Part shown: positions 4,184 through 33,050 of the stretch, one piece after another
Numbering within the stretch: the first letter of the stretch is position 1
Layout: each line of letters starts with the position of its first letter
Assembly (NCBI GenBank): GCA_021776735.1
Contig: JAJFFH010000040.1
Coordinates: 1 to 64,000, forward strand
Direction of reading: 5' to 3'
DNA length: 64,000 nucleotides
From: Planctomycetota bacterium
GTDB taxonomy: Bacteria; Planctomycetota; PLA2
Translations under genes and position numbers: made by a program
Notes under the pieces: model-generated
The model's database searches: none
The model's input: the letters and a program-made list of their open reading frames with translations, nothing else
What the model was told of the DNA's origin: nothing

Positions 4184-5029
4184 GTGGGCGTGGCCGTCGT
4201 TCACGTCCGCGGTCAGCTCGAGACGGTCATCCGCTGGCATCGCCAGGGATTTCGGTACTTCTGGCGATGGAAGTCGCGATCCAAGCCGGGCCGGCCGCCG
4301 ATCGAGCAGAAGCTCATCCACCTGGTCCGGCGCATGTCGACGGACAACCCGCCCTGGGGCGCGCCGCGCATCCGCGACGAGCTCGCGCTGCTCGGGCACG
4401 ATGTCGCCGCCTCGACCGTGGCGCGCTACATGGTCCGAGTCAAAGACCGCGAGCAGGCGCGGCAGAGCTGGCGTACGTTTCTCACCAACCACATGCGCGT
4501 GAGCGCAGCCTGTGACTTCTTCACCGTGCCGACGCTGACGTTTCGAGTGCTGTACGTCTTCGTCGTGCTATCGCACGATCGACGGCGCATCGTCCACGTC
4601 AGTGTGACGCGGCATCCGACCGCAGCGTGGACTGCTCAACAGATCACCGAGGCGTTTCCTGGCGGCGAGGAGCCGCGCTACCTACACCGCGATCGGGACG
4701 GAACGTACGGGCTTGAGTTCACGCACCGTGTCGCATCGATGGGCATCCGCGAGGTCATCCGCGCGAAGCAGTCGCCGTGGCAGAACCCATACGTTGAGCG
4801 CGTGATCGGCAGCATCCGCCGCGAATGCACCGATCACATCGTCGCGCTCAGCGAAGGGCACCTGCGGTCCGTGCTTCGCGAGTACGTCGAGTACTACAAC
4901 GCGGCTCGGTGCCACCAGTCGCTCGGCGGGAACGCACCGGAGCCGCGGCCTCTCGAAGACGGAACGAAGGCCGTCACGGCCGTTCCTTACCTCGGCGGCC
5001 TGCACCACCGATACACGCGCGCCGCGTGA
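4184..5029 (+). mobile_element. IS transposase, integrase-core (rve), likely N-terminally truncated
   Basis: VIRWHRQGFRYFWRWKSRSKPGRPPIEQKLIHLVRRM...NPPWGAPRIRDEL...YVEYYNAARCHQSLGGNAPEPR; IR-like end at 5199-5220. Confidence 0.85.
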
Positions 5030-6860: not shown

Positions 6861-9800
6861 ATGGACGATCTTGATCGGGCGATGTTCGCGGGCTTTGAAT
6901 CCGATCCGGGCGAGAGCGTGCTCGAACGCATCGAGCGTACGGCCGGACGCAAGGCGCGGGTGCTCCTGCACGACCTCCCGCACGACGCATCACCGCTCCT
7001 GCGCATGGCCGGACCGCTGCCGAACGGGGACGAAGCCAAGGACGACAACCGGTATCACATCGTGGGCGAGATCGCCCGCGGGGGCGTCGGCATCGTCCAC
7101 AAGGCGCGCGACAAGGATCTCGGTCGCGACGTCGCCCTGAAGCTGCTGCGGGCCGAGCACGGGAACAAGCCGGAGGTGCTCGCGCGTTTCGTCGAGGAGG
7201 CGCAGATCGGCGCCCAACTACAGCACCCGGGCATCGTGCCGGTATATGGCCTCGGCCTGAACGGGGACGGCCGTCCGTACTTCACGATGAAGTTGATCAA
7301 GGGACGAACGCTCGCAGCGCTCCTGAAAGAACGCGAGAATCCGTCCGACGACGGCCGCCGCTTCATCGAGATGTTCGAACAGATCTGCCACACGATCTCC
7401 TACGCGCAGGCACGCGGCGTGATTCACCGGGATCTGAAACCGAGCAACGTCATGATCGGCGCCTTCGGCGAAGTGCAGGTCGTGGACTGGGGGTTCGGCA
7501 AGGTGCTTGGCCGGGAGGATCACCCGGCCGCGCGTTTGGCCGAGCGCACCGTCATCGCCACGGTTCGCTCCGACACGGAGGGGTCGCGGTCGCTGGCCGG
7601 CTCGGTCATGGGCACGCCCGCCTACATGCCGCCGGAGCAGGCGCTCGGCCACGTCGATGAGCTCGACCGGCAGTCCGACGTGTTCTCGCTCGGCGCCATC
7701 CTCTGCGAGATCCTGACCGGTCAACCGCCGTACACCGGCAACCCGAAGGATTTGCTCATGCTTGCGTCCCAGGCGCGGCTGGAGGACGCCCACGCGCGCC
7801 TTGAGTCGTGCGGCGCCCACGCCGGGCTCGTCGAGCTCGCGAAACGCTGCCTCGAACCGCTGCGCGGGTCGCGACCGGAGCAGGCGGGGGTCGTGGCGGA
7901 GGCGATCGAAACGCATCTGGCGGCAGCGGACGAGCGCGCGCGCGGTGCCGACCTCGAAGCGATCAAGCAGCAAGCCGAGGTCAAAGCACAGCGCCGGAAC
8001 GCGGCGTGGGCGCGGCGCAAGCGGCGCCGCACGCGACTGGTCACGGCGGCGATCCTGCTGGCGACGGCGTGCGGGGGCGGCGCGTTCCTGTGGAGTGAAG
8101 CGGACCGGGACCGGCGAGTTGCAGCCGCTCGGTCGCGAGTCGATGCCGCGATGGAACAGGCGGCGTTCCTGCGCGGCCAGCACAAGTGGGACGAGGCGCT
8201 CGCCTCCGCACGCAGGGCGCACGGCATCGCCACGACCGAAGCGGACAACGAGCTGCGACAGCGCACCGCCGATCTTGTCCGAAGCACCGAGACCGGCCGG
8301 AAAGCGCACGAACAGGCCCAGCGGCGCGCCGCGGAGGCAGCGGCATTCATCCGCGACCTCGAAGAGATCCGGCTGGCCCGTGGCGACGACATGAACAACC
8401 GCGCCACGGACCGCGCCTACGCCGCCGCCTTCCGAACGCGCGGACTTGAGCTCAGTGATTCGGGGTGTGCGGACGGTATCCGGGCACGTTTTCCCGCTGC
8501 CGTCCTCGACGTGGCAGCGGCGCTCGATGAGTGGGCCTGGCTCCGCCGCACCAAGCGACGACTGAGCGACACGGAATGGAAGCCGTTGATCGCGGTCGCG
8601 CGCGCCCTGGATCCCGACCCGTGGCGCAACGGGCTCCGGAGAGCGTCCGTGAGCGAAGACATGGACGGACTTCGCCACCTCGCGTCCGAAGCGGCCCGGC
8701 AGGGACTCCCGTTACGCACGCTCGACATGCTCGGCGTTGCCCTGGGACAAGGGGGAGACCCGGAGGCCGCCGTTGCGTTGTACCGGACCGTTCGCCACTC
8801 GCATCCCGCCGATTTCTGGGTGAATTTCCATCTCGCAGGCTTCTTGATGCTTCAGCAGCGTCCGGGGCCCGCAGAGGCGGTCCGCTTCAGCACGGCGGCG
8901 CTGGCGCTCCGGCCGGAGTCCGTGGTCGCCGTCCAACGTCTGTCCGAAGCCTTGGGGGAACTGGGCCGGCACGGGGAAGCGATCACGCGCCTTCGCGACG
9001 CGATTCGAGGGACCCCGACCAGCGCGACGCTGCACGTCGGTCTGGGTGCCGCGCTCAGCATGGTGGCGCGTTTCGACGAGGCGGTACTGGCCGATCGCGA
9101 AGCCATTGGCCTTGATCCCGACAACCTCGTCGCGCAAAACAACCTCGGATATCACCTGCTGGAAGCGGGGCATCTCGACGCGGCCGAAAACGCCTGCCGG
9201 AAGGCGATTCGGTTGGCCCCCCAGGAGGTGACACCGCGCCTCAACCTGGCGGACGTGCTGCGCCTGAAGCGGCAGTATGTCGAGGCCGAAGCCGTCTCTC
9301 GCGAAGCGGTTCACGTCGATCCGCAGGATCCGGACGCCCACGGCGGCTTGGCAGCCGTCCTCATGGAACAGGGACACCCAAAGAAGGCGCTGGCCGCGAT
9401 CCGCGAGGCGATCCGCCGCGCCCCGGGGCGTTCGAAGTTCCACTACAACCTGGGCGTATTCCTGTCCATGATGGGCCGCGAGAAGGATGCCGGGCGCGCC
9501 TGGAGCACGGCGATCGGACTGGAGCCGGCCGTCGCCGAGGCATTCGTCGGCCTGAGCTCGGTGCTTCGCCCGCGGGGAGAGTTCAAGCGCGCGGTCACGC
9601 TCTGTCGGGAGGCGATTCGCCGCAAGCCCTGGCTACCGAGCGCCCATCAGGGACTCGGCCTCTCGCTGCGCGGCCTCGGTCGCCTGGAGAAGGCCGAGGC
9701 CGCGATCCGCGAGGCCCTTCGGCTATCGCCCAACCGCGCCACGCTCTGGGCGAACCTGGCCGCGATCCTCACGGACCGTGATCGCCCGCGCGAAGCCGTC

Positions 9801-11345
9801 GAGGAATGTCGCAAGGCCCTTAGGCTCGATCCCGCGCTGGACCTGGCCCAACGGAATCTCGGAGGCGCGCTGGAGAAGCTCGGCGCGCTGGAGCAGGCGG
9901 TCGAGGCGTATCGCAAGGCCGCGGCATCGGAGCGGTACGCCTACAGCGCGTATGTCAGGCTCGGGCACACGCTAGCAAAGCTGAGGCGGTACAAGGAGGC
10001 GGCAACCGCGATACGGGCCGCGATCCGGCTGAAGCCGGAACAAGCGCTGCCACAAGCGAAACTCGCGGCGATTCTTCAGCGGCTCAACCGCCCCCGGGAG
10101 GCCATCGAGGCCTGCCAGGCCGCCCTGCGGCTCGATCCGACGTACGCGACCGCGTACCGCAACATGGTCAAGGCGTACGCGGACCTCGGCGAATTCGACC
10201 GTGCGATTCAGGCCTGCCGGGACGCGGTCCGCCTCGATCCGATCCCGGTCGACTACGAGCAGCTGGGATACCTGCTCGCCACCCAAGAAAACGACATGGA
10301 CGGCGCCTTGGCTGCCTATCGCGAGGCCGTTCGACTGGCCCCGAAGTCGGGGCGGATCTACATGAACATGGCTTCCGTGCTGATGCGCATGAACAACCGG
10401 GAGGGTGCGATCGAGGCCTGTCGTCGCGCGATCACGCTGGATCCGCGGCTCGCGCGGGCGCACGCGCGACTCGGCTGGCTCCTTTGGCGGACGGGGGCGT
10501 ACGACGAAGCGGAGCCGGCTCTGCGTGAAGCGATCCGCCTTGACCCCAAGCTGATCCAGACCCACCGCGACCTCGGCAACGTTCTCGGCGATCAAGGGCG
10601 CCACGAAGCCGCGGTCGCCGCGTACCGGGAGTACCTTCGACGCGCGCCGAAACGCGTCGATGGACACCACAACCTCGGCCTTGCTCTCGGCCGTCTGGGG
10701 CAGGTTGACGACGCCATCCGTTCCTTTCGTGAGGCGATCCGGCTGGTCCCAAGCGGAGTCGCGCATACCCAGCTGGGATTCCAACTCGTCAAGAAGGACG
10801 ACATCGAGCGCGCCCTTGCTTCGTTTCGCGAAGCGGTTCGGCTCGCACCGGGAAGCATCATCAACCAGAACAACCTCACGCACGCCGCGCACGCGTTCAG
10901 GCTTGAGTCAAAGTGGCTGGCAATCCGCGACGGGGATTCCATCCCTCGGGATCCGAGAGACGCCGCCGCGTTCGCCTGGGTAGCGCAACTCCAGGCGCGC
11001 CCGACGCTCTCGGCGCGCCTTTACGAAGTCGCCTTCGGTGGCGGCCTGAAAGCCAGCGAGCTGGACCACCTCAACGCAGCTTGCGCGGCGGTGCTCGCCG
11101 CCGAAAAAGGCAGGGCCGAGCACTGGCGTAACCGCGCCCTGGAATGGCTCCGAACCCGCCTCGGAGCGCTTTCGACAAGACCACTGGCGGCCCGGCGAAA
11201 GCGCATCGACTGGTGGCGCAAGGACCCCGACTTGGGCAGCGTGCGGACCCCTGAGGCGCTCGCGAAGCTACCGGAGGCGGAGCGCGAGCGATGGCGCAAG
11301 TTGTGGGCGGACGTCGATGCGCTCGCGAAGGAGGAAGACCGATGA
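6861..11345 (+). CDS. Serine/threonine protein kinase with C-terminal TPR array
   Basis: [42 protein letters not shown]; one TM-like segment; long run of 34-aa TPR units. Confidence 0.95.
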   Translation: [1494 protein letters not shown]

Positions 11346-14300
11346 GCGACAGCATTCTGGAGCGTCTCGCGGACCAGGGCCGCGGGGCCCCGCGCGTCGA
11401 ACTTCGCGCCGCCGTTCCGGACGACCCCGCACTCGAGCGCGCCGACGAGAGGCGCCATGGGCGCTATGAAATCCTGGGCCCGCTTGCCGAGGGTGGCGTC
11501 GGGGAGGTCATGCGCGGTCGCGACGTCGATCTGGGCCGGGATGTCGCAGTGAAACTCCTGCGCGAAGGCCATGTACGCAATGCGGATCTCGTCCAGCGTT
11601 TCGTCGAGGAGGCACAGATCGGCGGGCAGCTTCAGCACCCCGGCATCGTGCCGGTCTACGAGCTCGGTATCGAGGGCGATCGTCCGTTCTTCTCCATGAA
11701 ACTGGTGAAGGGACAGACGCTGGCCGCCCTGCTCCGGGAGCGCGCGGACCCGGCGGATGGACGGCGCCGCCTGCTCAAGATCTTCGAGCAGGTGTGCCAG
11801 ACGGTCGCCTATGCGCACTCGCGCGGCGTTGTGCATCGCGATCTCAAGCCGTCCAACGTCATGGTCGGAGCGTTCGGCGAGGTGCAAGTGCTCGACTGGG
11901 GATTCGCCAAGGTGCTCTCGCGCGGCGGCATCGCGGACGAACGTCCTCCGCCGCCCGACCGGACTCACATCGCGACCCTGCGCTCGTCGGGCGAGGGCTC
12001 CGCGTCGGTCGCCGGCTCGGTCATGGGCACGCCCGCCTACATGCCGCCGGAGCAGGCGCTCGGCGAGGTCGATCGACTCGACGAACGATCGGATGTCTTC
12101 TCCCTGGGCGCGATTCTCTGCGAGATCCTGACCGGGTTGCCGCCCTACGTCGGCGAGGATCTGATTCTCCAGGCGGCCCACGCGCGACTGGAGGACGCGT
12201 ACGCCCGGCTCGCCGGCTGCACCGCAGAACCCGTGCTGGCGGCGCTGGCGCGGTCCTGCCTGAGTCCCGTGAGAAAGGACCGGCCGCGTGACGCCAAGGC
12301 CGTCGCGACGCGAATCCACCAACACCTCGCAGCCGTGGACGAGCGGGCGCATGACGCGATCCTGGATGCAGAACGCGATCGCCAGGCTGCAAGACAGGCA
12401 GCCGCACAAGCCGGAGAGGATCGGCGCGCCCGGCGGCAAGGGCTGCTCGTGGCCGTGTCCATCCTGCTCGCGTTGATAACAGCGGGCACGAGCTACGGGT
12501 GGCTGGCCCGCAAGGCGCGCGAGCGTGAGCGGCGAGCCGCAACCGGCGCGGCGATCGCCCTGCGTGAGGCGCAAGAGCTGCGTGGTCAGGGGAAGTTCGC
12601 CGAGGCGATCGCGGCGACCGAGCGCGCCCTGGCTTTCGGCACCGGCAACGTCGCGGCCAACGCCCGGCAACTGCACGCGACGCTCTCCGCCGAGGCGGCC
12701 GACGTGCAACGCACCGCCGAGTTGCACAAGAGGGAGTCGGAGTTCCTGTCCGCTTTGGAAGAGACCCGGCTGGGAAAGGACGACATGGAACCGCGCGACG
12801 TGGAGCGGGGCTACCGCACCGTGTTCGCCGGGGCCGAGTTGTACATCGAACAGGCCGGGGCCGAGACCCTCGCGCGGGGGCTGCGCGCGGCGTTTCCGAA
12901 CGTCCTCGGCGAGATTGCGGCGTGTCTCGACGAGTGGGCCTGGTGGCGACGCAAGATCCTCAAGAACGGGGACTGGGGCAAGCTGGTCGCCGTCGCCAGG
13001 GACATCGACGCGGATCCGTGGCGCGACAAACTGCGGCTCGCGCTCCAGCGGGACGACCTGGACGGACTCCGCACGCTGGCCGCCGAGGCGTTCACGCGGC
13101 CCCGTCCGGTACAGACACTGGCACTGCTGGGCATCGCGCTGGGCTACGGAGGCGCCTCGGACGAGGCCGCAGAGCACTTTCTCGCGGCCCATCGCCGGCA
13201 CCCCGCGGACTTCTGGATCAACACGCACGCCGCGGTCTACCTGACGAGGGTCCGCCCGCCGCGCCACGCCGAGTCGCTCCGCTTCGCGACCGCGGCCAGC
13301 GTCCTGCGCCCGCAGTCCGCGGCAGCACAGAATCTTCTGGGCATCGTGCTGCGAACCAACGGTCGCTTCAAAGAAGCCCTCGTCGCCGCCCGCGCCGCGG
13401 TCCGGATGGCCCCGAACAACCTGGTGTATCGCAGCAATCTCGGCGTGAGCCTGTCGGTCCTGGGCCGCCACGACGAGGCCGTCGCCGCCGATCGCGAGGC
13501 GCTGCAGCTCGATCCGCACAGTGCCGCCGTGCATAGCAACCTCGCGTTTCACTTGCTATACCTGAAGCGGTTCGTCGAGGCCGAGACCGCCTGCCGCGAG
13601 GCGATCCGCCTGAACCCGACGCTGGTGATCGCCCGTCGGAATCTCGCGACCGTGCTGCACACCACGGACCGTCTGGACGAGGCCGAAGCCGCCGCGCGAG
13701 AGGCCATCCGGATCGCGAAAGATTCCGCCTTGGCCCACGAGGTTCTGTCCAATGTCCTCATGCATCGAGGCCGGGTCGAGGCCGGGCTCGCCTCGGCCCG
13801 GGAGGCTGTGCGACTCGAGCCTTGGGCTCCAACGTGGCACTACAACCTGGGGTCGAAGCTGGTCCGCCACAACCGGATCGACGAGGCCGTCGCCGCGCTG
13901 CGCAGCGCCATCGCGCTCGAGCCGGTGATTCCCCAGGCACTGGTCAACTTGAGCATCGCGCTCCAGATGCGCGGCGAGTTCGACGAGGCAATCGAACACA
14001 GTTGGAGGGCCGTGCGGCTGAAGCCCGGGCTCTTCAACGCGCACCAGTCGCTCGCCAACGCCCTGGAGCGCGCCGGGCTCATGAAAGAGGCCGAGGTCGC
14101 GGCGCGAAGAGCGATCGACGTTGCTCCAAAGCGATCGAGCCTGCACCGCAATCTGGCGCGCCTGCTACTCCGCCGCGACCGTCCGCAGGAGGCCGTCGAG
14201 GCCTGCGTGACCGCGATCCGGCTCGACGCGAAGTCGTCGCACGCCCATCGGATTCTGGGCGACGCGTACCGCCGGATCGGCAAGAGCGACCACGCAATCG

Positions 14301-14908
14301 AGGCGTATCGCCAGGCCGTCCAATGTCCGCGTGGCGATCACGCGCAGTACGCACTGGGACGCGCGCTCCTCGCGCGCGGAGACCTCGCCGGCGCGGCGGA
14401 CGTCTTGCACCGGGCGGCCCTCCGAGAGCCCCAAACACGCCTGCTCCAGCGCGACGACGCAAGAGCGAGGCGCATGCTCGAGATGGAAGCGAAATGGCTC
14501 GCGGTCTGCCGGGACAAAGCCAAGCCCGCCGACGGATCCGAGGCGCTGCTGTTCGCCTGGGCGGCCCACGCGCAGGCGCGGCACCCACGCGCAGCCCAAC
14601 TGTACGCGCTCGCGTTCACGGCCGGCGAGGCACCCGCCGCGCGGGACCGCTACGACGCCGCCTGCGCGGCCGCCCGGGCCGCGACCCACGGCGGCGGAGA
14701 GAGCGCCGCGCGCTGGCGGCGGCAGGCTGCGACGTGGCTCCGCGCGGAACTCGGCGTGATCCGGGGCAAGCCGCTCGTGGAGCGTCGCCGCCGGCTCGGC
14801 CGCTGGCGCACCGAGCCGGATCTCGCGCCCCTGCAATCCGCGCAAGACGACGACGATAGACGAAAGCTCTGGGCCGAGATCGACGCCGTCTTCGCGAATG
14901 GGCGCTAG
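11342..14908 (+). CDS. Serine/threonine protein kinase with TPR repeats (tandem paralog)
   Basis: [42 protein letters not shown], TM segment, TPR array; ATG at 11342 overlaps the upstream TGA (ATGA). Confidence 0.95.
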   Translation: [1188 protein letters not shown]

Positions 14909-20192: not shown

Positions 20193-20699
20193 ATGGGCAC
20201 CCGAGGCCCCACGCCCCTCCCCCACGCCGTCCTGGCCGCTCGCGGCTCGTGGCGCGCCAGCCTCGCCCGCGACGAGCGGACACCGGTTCCCGAGGCCGGT
20301 ATCGACGACCCGCCGGAATGGCTGGACGACGAGGCCCGCGGCGCCTGGAACGATCTCTCGGCCCGGCTGCAGGCGATGGGTGTTCTCGGCACGATCGACT
20401 GGCACGCCCTCGCCTTGTATTGCCAGCTCTGGTCCCGCTGGCGGCAGGCCGAGGAGTTCCTCGATCGGCACGGGGACAGCTACGTCGTCAAGGACAACCG
20501 GGGCGAGGCGCGCGGGGTCCGGCTCTACCCACAGGTCAAGCTCGCTGGCCAGTTGGCCGAGCAGCTGACCCGGCTGGGCCGCGAGTTCGGACTCTCCCCG
20601 TCGGCCCGGACACGGGTCCAGACGATCCCGATGCCCCGCGGACCGAGCAAGTTGGACAAGTTCCTGAACCAGCCGCCGTCGGTGTCGCAAGGCTCATAA
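20193..20699 (+). CDS. Phage terminase small subunit, P27 family
   Basis: RGPTPLPHAVLAARGSWRA..., PPEWLDDEARGAWNDLSARLQAMGVLGTIDWHALALYCQLWSRWRQAEEFL, REFGLSPSARTRV. Confidence 0.88.
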   Translation: MGTRGPTPLPHAVLAARGSWRASLARDERTPVPEAGIDDPPEWLDDEARGAWNDLSARLQAMGVLGTIDWHALALYCQLWSRWRQAEEFLDRHGDSYVVKDNRGEARGVRLYPQVKLAGQLAEQLTRLGREFGLSPSARTRVQTIPMPRGPSKLDKFLNQPPSVSQGS

Positions 20700-23102: not shown

Positions 23103-23297
23103 GTGCACACGACGAACTACCTGACGCTAGACGAGGCCGCGCTCCTGCTCCGGGTTACACCGCCGACACTGGCCCGGTGGGCCTCCGCTGGCAAGGTCCC
23201 GGCCTACAAGACGCCCGGGGGCCAGTGGCGCTTCTACCAGGCTGATCTCCTGCTGGCGCTGCGGCGACCGAACCGCGACGAGGAGCGCCGGTCGTGA
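23103..23297 (+). CDS. Excisionase/MerR-type helix-turn-helix protein
   Basis: LTLDEAALLLRVTPPTLARWASAGKVPAYKTPGGQWRFYQADLL. Confidence 0.85.
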   Translation: MHTTNYLTLDEAALLLRVTPPTLARWASAGKVPAYKTPGGQWRFYQADLLLALRRPNRDEERRS

Positions 23298-24835
23298 GCT
23301 CCGCCGAGCGTCCCCTCGAGGATCGCTTCATCCAATGGGTGCTCGGAAACCTAGCCAACCGTACGTCCGCGTACGGCCGGTACAAGCGAGATGGCGGCCA
23401 GTACACCGAGAAAAGCGAACTCACCGCGGACATCATTCTGGCGCACTTTCGCGGCGAACTGACGATCGGTCTCCACACAACGAGCCTCGCGAATACCTGC
23501 CGGTGGTGCTGCTGGGACATCGACGCCCACGACGATCAGGACCGCCGGGCAACCAACTGGAAGACGGTCTTGTCACTCGTAGCGTCCCTGCAGGCGCTCG
23601 GCTGCGACCCCATCGTCGAGGACTCGAATGGCAAAGGTGGGCTTCACGTCTGGCTGTTCTTCGGCGAGCCGGTGCCGGCCGCCGACGCCTACGCCTTCGT
23701 GACCCGGATGGCGCCCGACGGGGTCGAAGCCTTCCCCAAGCAGCGCGCCGTCAGGCCGACCGAGGGGGCGCCAGGCTCGTACGGCAACTACGTGCGTCTC
23801 CCCGGGCGGCACCACAAGAATCGCGACCACTGGTCCCGAATCTTCCACAACGACGAGTGGTTCGCGTGGCCGGAGGCCGCGGAGATTCTCGTGGATCCGC
23901 CCCTCTCACCCGCGCCGTCTTCCGACGTGTCGTCGGGATGCGCCGAGGGAGTCGAGCCGCTGCCGGTCGGATCAGCGAGTCAGACGGCGAAAGCTCGCAG
24001 CCAAGACACCGTTCCGGACGGGCAGCGCAACTCGGTGTTGATTAGCTTCGCCGGTTTCATGCGGCGAGGCGGATTGCGCGAGAAGGAGATCGGCGCGGCC
24101 CTGGTCGCCGTCAACCAAGACCGGTGTGATCCGCCGCTCGAGGAATCCGAGGTTCGCAAGGTCGCGGCATCCGTGATGCAATACGACCCGGACGATCCGA
24201 TCCAATTTGCGACCGCGACGCCGGAGTCCCAAGAGGAGGGGCTCGCGACGGTCAACGGGACCCTGTTCTGCAAGCACAAGATCGTCTCGATCCGCCGTTT
24301 CGTGCGACGCGGCGGCCCTCGCGGACACGTCGATGCCGAACTCGCTGACGGTCAGGTGGTCCAGCTCGGAACGGTCTCCCAGATCCTGACGTTTGCCACG
24401 TTCCGCAAAGCACTGGCAGAGACCACAAAGATCGTGATTCCGCCGGAGCTGACGAAGAAGTGGCCGTCCATCGCGCAGATGATCCTGCATCTGATCGAAG
24501 AGGAGGGCGGGGAGACGGTTGACGACGCCCTGCACGAACTCCTGGAGTCGCTGCACGAGGCTGATCCGCCGCTCGACGCGGACGACCCGGACGAAGCCGC
24601 CGAGATCCCGCAGCAGCGCCGCAAGCCGTTCTTCCAACGCGGCGGCAAGCTCTACCTGCGATCGGAGCCGTTCTTGAACGCTGTGCGGCAGCGCACCCAG
24701 ATTCGACTCGACCAAGGCGGGCTGGCCGCCTGGCTCGGCCGTAAGGGCTGGGCGTTCCACAAGCTGAGCTTCGGATCGCGAGAGACACGGCGCCGCGTGA
24801 CTGCGTACGAGGCACCGGACGGGTGGTGCCGATGA
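23294..24835 (+). CDS. Primase-polymerase (AEP/TOTE-like) with PriCT-like domain
   Basis: WCCWDIDAHD metal-binding motif, VEDSNGKGGLHVWLFF, RLPGRHHK, then NSVLISFAGFMRRGGLREKEIGAALVAVNQDRCDPPLEESEVRKVAASV (PriCT-like). GTG overlaps upstream TGA. Confidence 0.85.
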   Translation: MSSAERPLEDRFIQWVLGNLANRTSAYGRYKRDGGQYTEKSELTADIILAHFRGELTIGLHTTSLANTCRWCCWDIDAHDDQDRRATNWKTVLSLVASLQALGCDPIVEDSNGKGGLHVWLFFGEPVPAADAYAFVTRMAPDGVEAFPKQRAVRPTEGAPGSYGNYVRLPGRHHKNRDHWSRIFHNDEWFAWPEAAEILVDPPLSPAPSSDVSSGCAEGVEPLPVGSASQTAKARSQDTVPDGQRNSVLISFAGFMRRGGLREKEIGAALVAVNQDRCDPPLEESEVRKVAASVMQYDPDDPIQFATATPESQEEGLATVNGTLFCKHKIVSIRRFVRRGGPRGHVDAELADGQVVQLGTVSQILTFATFRKALAETTKIVIPPELTKKWPSIAQMILHLIEEEGGETVDDALHELLESLHEADPPLDADDPDEAAEIPQQRRKPFFQRGGKLYLRSEPFLNAVRQRTQIRLDQGGLAAWLGRKGWAFHKLSFGSRETRRRVTAYEAPDGWCR

Positions 24836-25107
24836 CGTGGCCCCGTGGTCCCCAATGCCGCGCCAACAGGGGCCCGTGGTCCTCGTGGTCCACGCCCAGT
24901 GGGCCCGTGGTCCTTGTGCCCGCGGACCACGGGCCGTGTCAGCGGACCACGGAGCCGGGCGAAAACGCCCGAATCATAGGGATTTCAGGGCCGTGGTCTC
25001 CGTGGTCCCCGTGGTCCGGCCCTGCGCAAAACGGCGTCAGGTCGAAGTGCCGGGACCACGCGGACCACCAGGACCACGGAGACCACGAAGCGAGGCGGCG
25101 GTCATGA
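24832..25107 (+). CDS. Small low-complexity ORF (91 aa) with ATGA overlaps at both ends
   Basis: MTWPRGPQCRANRGPWSSWSTPSG...SGPWSPWSPWSGPAQ...DHADHQDHGDHEARRRS*; ATG at 24832 overlaps prim-pol TGA; TGA 25105-25107 overlaps helicase ATG at 25104. Confidence 0.45.
   Translation: MTWPRGPQCRANRGPWSSWSTPSGPVVLVPADHGPCQRTTEPGENARIIGISGPWSPWSPWSGPAQNGVRSKCRDHADHQDHGDHEARRRS
24844..25087. repeat. Iteron-like array of CGTGGTCC/GGACCACG (13 copies, mostly 9-bp phased)
   Basis: Forward copies start 24844, 24875, 24884, 24906, 24992, 25001, 25010; reverse copies 24924, 24944, 25053, 25062, 25071, 25080 (a few with one mismatch). Confidence 0.85.
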
Positions 25108-26762
25108 CAGCCCCTCGCGGTACCCGAATCCTGCTCGGCCCTCCCGGGACCGGCAAGAGCCACTACCTCGCGAACCGGGTCCCGAAGATCGTCAAGGCAT
25201 CGGGGCGCTTCCCCAATAACGAGAGTTCGCCGATCCTGATCTGTTCGCTGACCCGCGCCGCAGCCGGCGAGATCGGCTCGAGGCTGCGACACCTCCCGAC
25301 CACGGTCGCTCGGACCGTCCATTCCCACGCCTATCGAAACGGCTGCGCGGACCGCCGAGTCATCGACCGTCCGCTCGTCGCCGACTGGAACCACGAGCAC
25401 CGCTCGGTCGCTCTGACGCCGCCGAAGCCACGCCGCAAGGACGCCGTCCCCGACGACATCGCCCCCGCCCACAAGGGCGACCAGCCCGGCGACGAGGTCG
25501 CTGCGCAATACGACCTGCTTCGGCACCGGCTGGTGCCCACGGACCGGATGCCGCCGCGGATTCGGCGCTTCGCGCAGCGCTGGGAGTCGTTCAAGCGCGA
25601 CAACGGCTGCCTCGACTTCACGGACATGCTGATCCACGCGGATACGGCCGCGCCCCTCGGCGCCGAGGTGATCATCGTGGACGAGGCCCAGGACCTCTCG
25701 CCGCTGATGTGGAAGGTCGTGCTCGCGTGGGCCGACAGCGCCGGGGGGCTGATCGCGGTGGGCGATCCCTGGCAGGCGCTCTACGACCCGTGGGCCGGCG
25801 CGTCGGCCGCCGAGTTCCTCCGGCAGTTCGACCAGGCCGACGACCACGCGATCCTCTCACAGAGCTGGCGTGTTCCTGCCGCCGTGCACCGCGTCGCGAT
25901 GCGGTTTGCGCACGAACTCTCCGACTACCGGCCGATCGAGTACGACCCGCGACGCGAGTCCGGGTCCGGATCGCCAATCGTCGAGGGGCGGGTCGTGCGC
26001 TGCGACGCCACGTGGACCGACCCCGAGCGTGCGATCGATCAGGCCGAGGAGCTCGCCGCCGCGGGGAAGCGCGTGCTGTTTGTGTTTTCCGCCAACTACA
26101 TGACGAAGCCGCTCTGCCAGGCGCTCCGCGAGCGCGCCACGGTGTTCTCCAACCCGTGGCGCCTCGACGAGCCGATGTGGAACCCGTTCCGTGGCGGAAT
26201 GGGAGACGCCGCGGCGGCGTTGCTCGATCCGCGCCAGCGCTGGACCGCCGCCGGGATTCACGAGTGGACAAGGCCGCTCCGGGCGACCGGGCTGCTGCGG
26301 CGTGGCATGCGTGCGGAGATCGAAAAACACAAGCACAAACGCCGCCACATACCCCCCGAGCAGCTGCGGAAGTGGTTCGCGGACGATGCGCGGAACGAGA
26401 TCGCGCGCCTCGCTTCACAGGGCTCGGACGCCGCGGTCCTTGGGTGGTGGCGCGGACGCCTCGCGACGAAGTATCGCGAGTCGGGGCACTACGCTGCCGC
26501 CCTGATTCGAGCGCACGGGGTCGAAGCGCTGGTAGCCCCGTCGCTCCTTCACCCGAGCACGATCCACGGGTGCAAAGGCGGAGAGGCAGACCATGTCTTT
26601 CTGTTTCCGGATATCTCGCCGATGGCCGAGGAGGCGTGGTCGGCCGGCGGACGGTACCGCGACCCCGTCGTGCGAGCGTTCTATGTGGGAATCACGCGGG
26701 CCCGGGGGTGCCTGCATGTGTGCGAGCCCGCGACACGCCGTTTCGTGGAGCTTCCCCGATGA
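25104..26762 (+). CDS. SF1 (UvrD/Rep-like) helicase
   Basis: Walker A GPPGTGKS, Walker B IIVDEAQDLSPLMWK, GDPWQALY, LSQSWRVP, STIHGCKGGEADHVFLFPD, RAFYVGITRARGCLHV. Confidence 0.93.
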   Translation: MTAPRGTRILLGPPGTGKSHYLANRVPKIVKASGRFPNNESSPILICSLTRAAAGEIGSRLRHLPTTVARTVHSHAYRNGCADRRVIDRPLVADWNHEHRSVALTPPKPRRKDAVPDDIAPAHKGDQPGDEVAAQYDLLRHRLVPTDRMPPRIRRFAQRWESFKRDNGCLDFTDMLIHADTAAPLGAEVIIVDEAQDLSPLMWKVVLAWADSAGGLIAVGDPWQALYDPWAGASAAEFLRQFDQADDHAILSQSWRVPAAVHRVAMRFAHELSDYRPIEYDPRRESGSGSPIVEGRVVRCDATWTDPERAIDQAEELAAAGKRVLFVFSANYMTKPLCQALRERATVFSNPWRLDEPMWNPFRGGMGDAAAALLDPRQRWTAAGIHEWTRPLRATGLLRRGMRAEIEKHKHKRRHIPPEQLRKWFADDARNEIARLASQGSDAAVLGWWRGRLATKYRESGHYAAALIRAHGVEALVAPSLLHPSTIHGCKGGEADHVFLFPDISPMAEEAWSAGGRYRDPVVRAFYVGITRARGCLHVCEPATRRFVELPR

Positions 26763-27040
26763 GGGAGGACGCGCCGCTTCGCCCCGGCGACCTCCTCACC
26801 GTGGCCCAGGTCCTCAAGATCTTCCCCGTGGGCAGGAGCACGATCTACGCCCTCTGCAGCTCCGGCCAACTCCCCCACTACCGCGTCCAGGCGCTCGGTT
26901 CCCGCTGCGGGCGCATCTTGGTCGGCCGCGACGACTTGGCCGCGTACCTCGAATCGACGCGACAAACGGCCACACGGGCGCCCGTGCGGGTCGATGTGGA
27001 CGACCTTCTGGCGAAAGTGCGGAGCGCATCGAAAACCTAG
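26759..27040 (+). CDS. Helix-turn-helix/excisionase-like DNA-binding protein
   Basis: LLTVAQVLKIFPVGRSTIYALCSSGQLPHYRVQALGSRCGRILVGRDDLAAYLES; ATG overlaps helicase TGA. Confidence 0.85.
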   Translation: MREDAPLRPGDLLTVAQVLKIFPVGRSTIYALCSSGQLPHYRVQALGSRCGRILVGRDDLAAYLESTRQTATRAPVRVDVDDLLAKVRSASKT

Positions 27041-27077
27041 TGGATGTGTCCGAAACTCAATGGCTCCATGTGTCCCG

Positions 27078-28226
27078 ATGAGTACGACGAAACGAAAGCC
27101 CCGACGACGCTTCGGTCAGGTGTTCCGTCGGCCCCAGGGTCGCGGCTGGCTGGCACGGTTCCCTGATCCCAGCGGCGGCCGGACAGCCAGCGGGCGACCG
27201 AAGGTCATCACACGATCCGTTGCTTCGAAGGCCGAGGGCGACAAGCTGCTGAAGGAGGTCCGGCAAGCGATCCTCCGCGGGTCGTTCGCGCCGAAGCCCG
27301 AGGCGCCGACCTGCGACGTGACCGTGCTCGAGGCGATCGATGGCCACCTCGCCGCGATGGAGGGGCAGGGCAAGTCGAGATCTACGATGCAGCTGTACGA
27401 GTACTCCAAAAAGCCGCTGAAGAAACAGGGCCTCGGGCACAAGCGCGTCGTCGATGTCACCGTCTCCGATGTGGAGAAGTACCTCGGTTGGCGCTGCACG
27501 AACGTCTGGAGGACGACATGCCGTCCGGGTGAGACGCCGAAGGCGGTCCGCGTCAAGGGCGGCCGTGCGTCGACGTCTACCGTCGCTCGGGACCGCGAGC
27601 TCTTGAGCGTCGCCTTCAACCGCCTCGTCCGACTCGGCCAACTCGCCGAGAACGTCGTGGCGAAGGTGCCCAAGCCGAAGCGGCGGAAGAGAAAGCGCGT
27701 CGTTCTCTCCAAGGATGAGGTCGCCCGCCTGATCGACTGCTGCGGCAAACACCTCCGGTCCGTTGTTCTGACGTTGGCCTACACGGGCGCCCGGAAAGGT
27801 GAGGTGCTGGGGCTGCGGTGGCGGGACGTCTGCCTCGCGACCGGAACGATCGCGCTCTTCCGCAGCAAAACGGGGAGCGCGGACGCGATTCCGCTCAACC
27901 CAGCGCTGGCCGCGGAGCTGAAGCAGCTCCGCGCGGCGCGACCGAACGCTCAACCGTCCGACCACGTCTTCCTGAGCAGACTTGGGCGGCCGTACAAGAC
28001 GATCCGGACCGGGTTCCTGTCGGCGGTGCGTCGCGCCGGGCTCGAAGGCCGAGGCGTCACGCCGCACGTACTGCGGCACTGCTTCGCCTGCCACTTTCTG
28101 AGCGGCGGGGCGGCGATCACGGACCTGCAAGGGCTGCTCGGGCACGCCTCGCTGGCGACGACCCAGATCTACGCGAAGATGATCGACAAGCGGACTCGGG
28201 CGAGCGTGGAAGCGATGCGGTTCTGA
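27078..28226 (+). CDS. Tyrosine recombinase (phage-type integrase)
   Basis: Catalytic region TLAYTGARKGEVLGLRWRDV...VTPHVLRHCFACHFLSGGAAITDLQGLLGHASLATTQIYAKM. Confidence 0.95.
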   Translation: MSTTKRKPRRRFGQVFRRPQGRGWLARFPDPSGGRTASGRPKVITRSVASKAEGDKLLKEVRQAILRGSFAPKPEAPTCDVTVLEAIDGHLAAMEGQGKSRSTMQLYEYSKKPLKKQGLGHKRVVDVTVSDVEKYLGWRCTNVWRTTCRPGETPKAVRVKGGRASTSTVARDRELLSVAFNRLVRLGQLAENVVAKVPKPKRRKRKRVVLSKDEVARLIDCCGKHLRSVVLTLAYTGARKGEVLGLRWRDVCLATGTIALFRSKTGSADAIPLNPALAAELKQLRAARPNAQPSDHVFLSRLGRPYKTIRTGFLSAVRRAGLEGRGVTPHVLRHCFACHFLSGGAAITDLQGLLGHASLATTQIYAKMIDKRTRASVEAMRF

Positions 28227-28273: not shown

Positions 28274-28289
28274 GTTTTTGGATAGGACG
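28274..28289. repeat. Solitary copy of IS-end-like motif gtttttggataggacg
   Basis: 16-bp identity with 2124-2139. Confidence 0.6.
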
Positions 28290-32663: not shown

Positions 32664-33050
32664 CGGAAGAACTGTGCACTCGGGCACCGTGTGAGGCCTC
32701 CACGTCGGAACGTTCGAGCACTCGGCTCGCGTGCTCGCACCGCGCGGGTGGAAGATTCGTGCACTCGGACGCCGCACGCGCCCCCGCGCCTTCGGACTAT
32801 TCGTGCACTCGGCCGGCACCTCGTGCCACGCGAGCGGAACATTCGTGCACTCCGGGGCACCGCGGCCGCCTCACTACACCCGAAGATTCGTGCACTCGCA
32901 CGCCGCACCCGTCCCCGCTTTCGGAACCTTATGCATTCCGGCGCCGCCGGCGCCCCGCATGACCGGAAGATCCGTGCACTCGGCCGGCATCTCGCGACCA
33001 ACGCGGGCGGAACATTCGTGCACCCGGCTCATGCCGAGGCGCCCCTTCAC
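32664..33050. repeat. Degenerate tandem array, ~9 units of 42-45 bp
   Basis: Core cGGAAnATTCGTGCACTCGG begins at about 32664, 32706, 32749, 32793, 32835, 32880, 32922, 32964, 33008. Confidence 0.85.

Follow-up and report, generated by a model that had tools for sequence, protein, structure and literature searches.

We analyzed a 64-kb stretch of Planctomycetota DNA (64,000 nt of contig JAJFFH010000040.1, hereafter the window) in which a prim-pol gene and a UvrD-like helicase gene are separated by a dense array of short repeats. The features considered here are the following, with coordinates counted from the first letter of the window:

20193–20699, + strand: terminase small subunit (Pfam Terminase_4, E 7e-21; PHROG 83, E 8e-31), of phage or satellite affiliation
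23294–24835, + strand: prim-pol gene, 513 aa (Pfam AEP-TOTE primase domain PF22548, E 6e-18; PriCT-1 PF08708, E 4e-15)
24521–24832, + strand: winged-helix-like C-terminal part of the prim-pol, residues about 410–513 (AlphaFold model), candidate iteron-binding domain
24832–25107, + strand: 91-aa open frame spanning the array, overlapping both neighboring genes by ATGA; unlikely to be a protein gene
24844–24951, no strand assigned: iteron set 1, with 4 forward (24844, 24875, 24884, 24906) and 2 reverse (24924, 24944) CGTGGTCC copies
24961–24988, no strand assigned: less GC-rich stretch between the iteron sets, read directly from the sequence, putative melting site
24992–25087, no strand assigned: iteron set 2, with 3 forward (24992, 25001, 25010) and 4 reverse (25053, 25062, 25071, 25080) copies at 9-bp spacing
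25104–26762, + strand: UvrD-like superfamily 1 helicase of the replication module (Pfam UvrD-helicase, E 2e-15; PHROG 1967, E 2e-43)
26759–27040, + strand: HTH_17 protein, excisionase-like (profile matches)
26994–28226, + strand: tyrosine integrase of the element (Pfam, E 5e-28; PHROG integrase, E 6e-62)

The neighborhood of prim-pol, helicase, excisionase-like, integrase and terS genes is an integrated phage-like or satellite-like element, and relatives of its UvrD-like helicase adjoin primases in phages. Upstream of the prim-pol lies a gene for a methylase with a ParB-like N-terminal part. No near relatives of the prim-pol were found in the viral and genome contigs searched, and its plasmid and phage matches were remote only. 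Of the features of a PICI (integrase, excisionase, a replication module with ori, and terS without capsid genes), an integrase, an excisionase-like protein, a prim-pol, a helicase and terS were found. The search for element ends (attachment sites) found none; the sole 16-bp flanking repeat, the direct repeat GTTTTTGGATAGGACG (2124–2139 and 28274–28289), is dispersed in the genome, where it has 10 exact copies, several of them paired 3.7–6.6 kb apart on one contig, and it was set aside as a candidate for att sites on this basis. The search for a SaPI-type Rep initiator helicase was also negative, the helicase of this module being UvrD-like, and since neither that helicase nor the element ends were found we do not file the element as a PICI. 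Elsewhere in the window, two adjacent genes encode very large proteins of 1494 and 1205 aa (6861–11345 and 11291–14908) that match protein kinases, the 1494-aa protein also matching TPR repeats, and a transposase-like gene is found at 4184–5029.

The array itself consists of multiple phased copies of one short word, far above chance. The word CGTGGTCC/GGACCACG occurs in 10 exact copies, on both strands, between 24844 and 25078. The original prediction, which was made from the sequence alone, had counted 13 copies; this total holds at 24844–25087, but three of the copies carry one mismatch (CGTGGTCT at 24992, GGACCACC at 25062 and AGACCACG at 25080). The copy order given there (four forward, two reverse, three forward, four reverse) and the exact 9-bp spacings were both correct on re-scan. 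When the whole 64-kb window is scanned, the array at 24844–25087 is the densest short-repeat cluster, with 12 copies of CGTGGTC in its 300 bp versus 6 at the next best place. Dinucleotide shuffles of the interval contained a mean of 2.6 copies, and 12 copies were reached in 0/200. The second-best cluster of the window, at 32758–33017, contains CGTGCAC six times at a spacing of about 42–84 bp. Genome-wide, CGTGGTCY is found at 870 sites versus 447 for the reversed control; these sites are scattered and the head-to-tail pair CGTGGTCCNCGTGGTCC occurs only once, at the array, so that a genome-wide family of dispersed CGTGGTC arrays was dropped from consideration. The less GC-rich stretch that had been noted between the array halves is present at 24961–24988 and has lower GC than its surroundings, yet its A+T-richness is moderate; the array is GC-rich. 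No Rfam families matched the array stretch, and no sigma-70-like promoter or terminator was found around it by a scan restricted to these types.

To compare this arrangement with related replication modules, helicase relatives were gathered from phage records, viral contigs and genome contigs, and 17 modules, hand-chosen from the results, were scored. Whether homologous prim-pol/helicase pairs keep a similar phased array with a different sequence had been proposed as a check on the array, and related modules do keep such arrays, in the same slot. In six of the 17 modules the primase-helicase interval holds an array whose copy number was reached by 0/200 shuffles: the window, Meiothermus phage MMP7 (TGTGACA, five copies), Thermus phage Riverbug (TAGTCAG, nine), Meiothermus contig L158 (TGACTAG, five), Desulfobacterales contig L155 (TGACTTA, five) and viral contig L074 (GTTACGC, five). 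The same count was found elsewhere in the respective locus in 0, 0, 3, 0, 0 and 1 windows. L158 and Riverbug are related and therefore not fully independent cases. Three further intervals have weak arrays (L153, L075 and L073), and eight of the 17 have none (L154, L157, DSL-LC04, 023Pt, Pan1, R5C, HTVC023P and MW202510). The slot of phage DSL-LC04 (L033, 4754–5011) is occupied by an 85-aa frame annotated as a protein, without an array. Riverbug carries a second array away from the primase (L030, 8772–8904), with TGGTGAA 12 times at a spacing of about 9–12 bp. Matches to AT-rich marine phages were set aside as low-complexity noise.

A second survey started from the primase instead of the helicase. 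PriCT-1 was searched in 294 genomes of the phylum, yielding 25 loci with sequence past the primase stop, and the strongest 8-mer array of each locus (about 10 kb) was located blind to position, allowing one mismatch on both strands within 260 bp. With the window excluded, 8/24 loci have their strongest array no more than 200 bp from the primase stop, where 0.93 would be expected, and in 16/24 it is not at the primase end. The corresponding Poisson-binomial sum, p about 2e-6, is approximate because the null assumes uniform placement along the locus and independence among loci, the 200-bp cutoff was set after the table was seen, and tied maxima were scored at the first listed window. Array words differ among the loci (AATAGGTC, TGCGTCAC, ACCGAAGG, ACTTATTG, CGAATATT and others), and arrays 3' of primases recur with or without a helicase gene next to them, in loci of differing gene content. 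Among arrays located elsewhere, one in L044 (5303–5513; CCTTCAC, eight copies) lies about 4 kb upstream of the primase stop and not at its 3' end, and the best arrays of three loci from one genome (L057, L058 and L059) lie about 1.5 kb downstream of the stop, the word being AGCGGAAA in two of them and TGGAACTT in the third.

Across these families the copies cluster in groups of 2–4, mostly with an 8–9-bp period, and the groups often alternate in orientation about 20–70 bp apart. With forward and reverse copies written as F and R, the order is FFFF RR FFF RRRR in the window, R FF RR FF in L040, FFF RR F RRR in L036 and FF RRR in L037, while the copies of L155 have one orientation only. An A/T-rich stretch separates the F and R clusters in L035 and L040. 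By eye, these two loci (L035, 4700–4800; L040, 7840–7940) have different words and common flanks (C runs, TGTATA..GCGACCCCCT) around their R and F clusters. An array beside the initiator gene, with a changed word, is thus found in 8/24 PriCT-1 loci and in six helicase-paired modules, some relatives being without one. This recurrence of position with changing words supports the reading of the array as a replication origin that had been proposed from the window, and we consider it likely that the array is an origin bound by the element's own replication protein.

The comparison also bears on which property of the DNA is functional. The forward and reverse groups of set 2 form an inverted repeat with 27-nt arms (93% complementary) and a 42-nt loop, in line with the inverted-repeat folding that had been noted as possible, and the array DNA folds strongly (z -6.4 and -7.9), as do the arrays of Riverbug and L158. 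Such a hairpin could be the functional element in place of the iterons, as in pRN1, which depends on a stem-loop immediately downstream of its prim-pol gene (ORF904) and whose 21-nt stem and 58-nt loop it resembles (PMC4234260). The likeness extends to the position and size of the pRN1 origin element, which is about 100 bp long, stem-loop-capable and directly 3' of the prim-pol gene (PMC4234260). However, strong folding is absent in MMP7 (z -1.1), L155 (+0.5), L074 (-0.1), L153 (-0.3) and L075 (+1.1) while the repeats persist, with L155 having them in a single orientation, and the copies at 24844–24951 fall outside the large stem of the window. A conserved large stem-loop 3' of the prim-pol gene, of the pRN1 type, was therefore not found: the stem is present in the window and not kept in the relatives. 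Because the repeats are kept and foldability is not, iterons bound by a protein are favored over a DNA structure of the pRN1 kind, where one stem-loop is relied upon, and a functional hairpin is very unlikely here.

The array is also covered by an open reading frame, and the original prediction had described a candidate coding origin within a 91-aa frame seemingly built of the iterons themselves. The frame is present at 24832–25107, with ATGA at both ends, and a 74-aa frame in MMP7 is joined to its neighbors in a similar way. Both would speak for a true gene encoding a small repetitive protein, the DNA repeats being a by-product of its amino-acid repeats. The coding status of the 91-aa frame is nevertheless unsupported. 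The codon score of the frame is -0.17 per codon, close to wrong frames (at most -0.18) and below real genes (at least 0.09), and that of the MMP7 frame is also non-coding-like (-0.31). The 91-aa protein has no Pfam match. Because the repeats occupy both strands and do not keep to one frame, no single peptide repeat is encoded; the arrays of L155, L074, L153 and L075, moreover, have no frame of this type. A given frame would be open by chance in 38% (0.38) of shuffled versions of this GC-rich stretch, and the openness of the frame says little because the helicase frame is likewise open across the array, from the GTG at 24837. The 91-aa frame is thus probably not a protein gene, and the notion that the repeats merely reflect a repetitive protein is almost certainly wrong. 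The frame is perhaps kept open for translational coupling. In Riverbug and L158 the arrays coincide with the end of the primase frame, which is less likely to be open by chance (0.009 and 0.007), and an open frame that would let ribosomes pass from primase to helicase through the candidate origin is a possible reason in some members. In phage lambda, the origin iterons are inside a real replication gene, whose protein O binds them. The parallel to lambda O drawn in the original prediction holds in that the iterons lie in a replication gene region, but the frame over the window's array does not look like a gene, and the fit is looser than to SaPI/PICI or pRN1, where the origin sits just 3' of the initiator gene.

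Regularly spaced short repeats, both inverted and direct, inside a replication operon would also suit an operator through which the operon is repressed or timed by a regulator or by a replication protein. This is an unlikely alternative to an origin: the array lies mid-operon, a scan for sigma-70-like promoters found none nearby, 13 copies over 245 bp exceed usual operators, and the position 3' of primase genes recurs with or without a following helicase gene. Iteron initiators often autoregulate as well, and the operator and origin roles are not exclusive. The nearby methylase with its ParB-like N-terminal part and the small terminase subunit could instead point to a role of the array in partition, as a parS-like site, or in packaging, since sites of both kinds can be repeat arrays; this is very unlikely given that the array travels with primase genes, being found 3' of primases in loci of varied gene content.

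For the replication origin favored here, a candidate binding protein is the prim-pol itself. The region that follows PriCT-1 (residues about 300–513) aligns across related modules, and its MMP7 counterpart (hhalign 99.4%, E 4.5e-21) stands alone as a 215-aa protein whose gene immediately precedes the array. Between Riverbug and L158, identity in this C-terminal region is 64%, and the two have a common word core, TAGTCA/TAGTCG. AlphaFold models the C-terminal segment with two better-supported parts (mean pLDDT 74 and pTM 0.47 for the segment), the last of which (about 410–513; block pLDDT mostly 75–88) has a helix-strand-strand-helix-helix-strand-strand order as in winged-helix domains. The winged-helix reading is one of topology only, as the C-terminal model has no significant fold match in the PDB; the first AlphaFold model was also without a meaningful PDB match. 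Low-ranked winged-helix PDB matches (replication terminator protein, TFIIE, PadR-like) were non-significant and are not counted as evidence. In a viral library, the best fold match (E 2e-11) is a 215-residue protein, equal in length to the MMP7 protein, and the other two significant matches are annotated as primases. For AEP proteins, a terminal winged-helix domain has been suggested to recognize origins (PMC5862659), while in SaPI and SCCmec the origin is bound by the helicase and not the primase (PMC7581432), so that in this module the role could also fall to the helicase or to some other protein. The chances are roughly even that the winged-helix-like C-terminal region of the prim-pol binds the iterons.

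From these patterns we infer the following course of replication. Once the small phage-like or satellite-like element had excised, the array would serve as its oriV. The element's replication protein, most likely the prim-pol via its winged-helix-like C-terminal region, would bind the 13 iterons downstream of its own gene and open the less GC-rich stretch that the two iteron sets flank, which would be the melting site. Loading of the UvrD-like helicase, encoded by the next gene, may then enlarge the bubble, and the first primers would come from the prim-pol.

Such a layout may work like the origins of SaPIs and PICIs by analogy. PICI origins are located immediately 3' of the replication gene and have two iteron sets around an A+T-rich region (PMC6092414); the array resembles them in its short iterons just 3' of the initiator gene, its two sets flanking a putatively easier-melting stretch and the integrase and small terminase of its element (PMC6092414). 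It differs in having an AEP-TOTE/PriCT-1 primase and a separate UvrD-like superfamily 1 helicase, with the array between both genes, and in that the SaPI Rep helicase, which recognizes the origin by its C-terminal domain (PMC7581432), was not found. SCCmec elements similarly have a replication operon and a putative origin whose short direct repeats are recognized by the element-encoded helicase and serve as a priming site (PMC7581432), although there the binder is the helicase Cch2, the repeats follow the operon, and the polymerase and helicase types differ. The oriV of SGI1, an integrated element, is an iteron origin immediately downstream of the initiator gene rep (PMC7433901), but its iterons are 17 bp long, its initiator is of the RepA_C type and it has a putative DnaA box, in contrast to the 8–9-bp units and prim-pol found here. 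The open-access literature searched did not describe iteron origins in the slot between an AEP prim-pol and a UvrD-like helicase, which is not proof of novelty.

To our knowledge, few origins are known for elements with archaeo-eukaryotic-type primases. AEP-type primases are common in integrated elements (PMC5862659). The array may, as an extension that we hold only tentatively, exemplify a class of origins widespread in phages and satellites, each with an AEP prim-pol that brings a rapidly changing origin-binding domain of its own and with a private iteron word immediately downstream of the prim-pol gene, partly together with a UvrD-like superfamily 1 replicative helicase and with some arrays kept open for ribosomes. 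If so, the rule of a phased array of a private 7–9-bp word just 3' of a primase gene would find many origins from sequence alone. A C-terminal domain that changes along with its word would allow the evolution of origin specificity, and the way elements avoid cross-recognition, to be tested directly, and the UvrD-like helicase would be worth testing as a replicative helicase.
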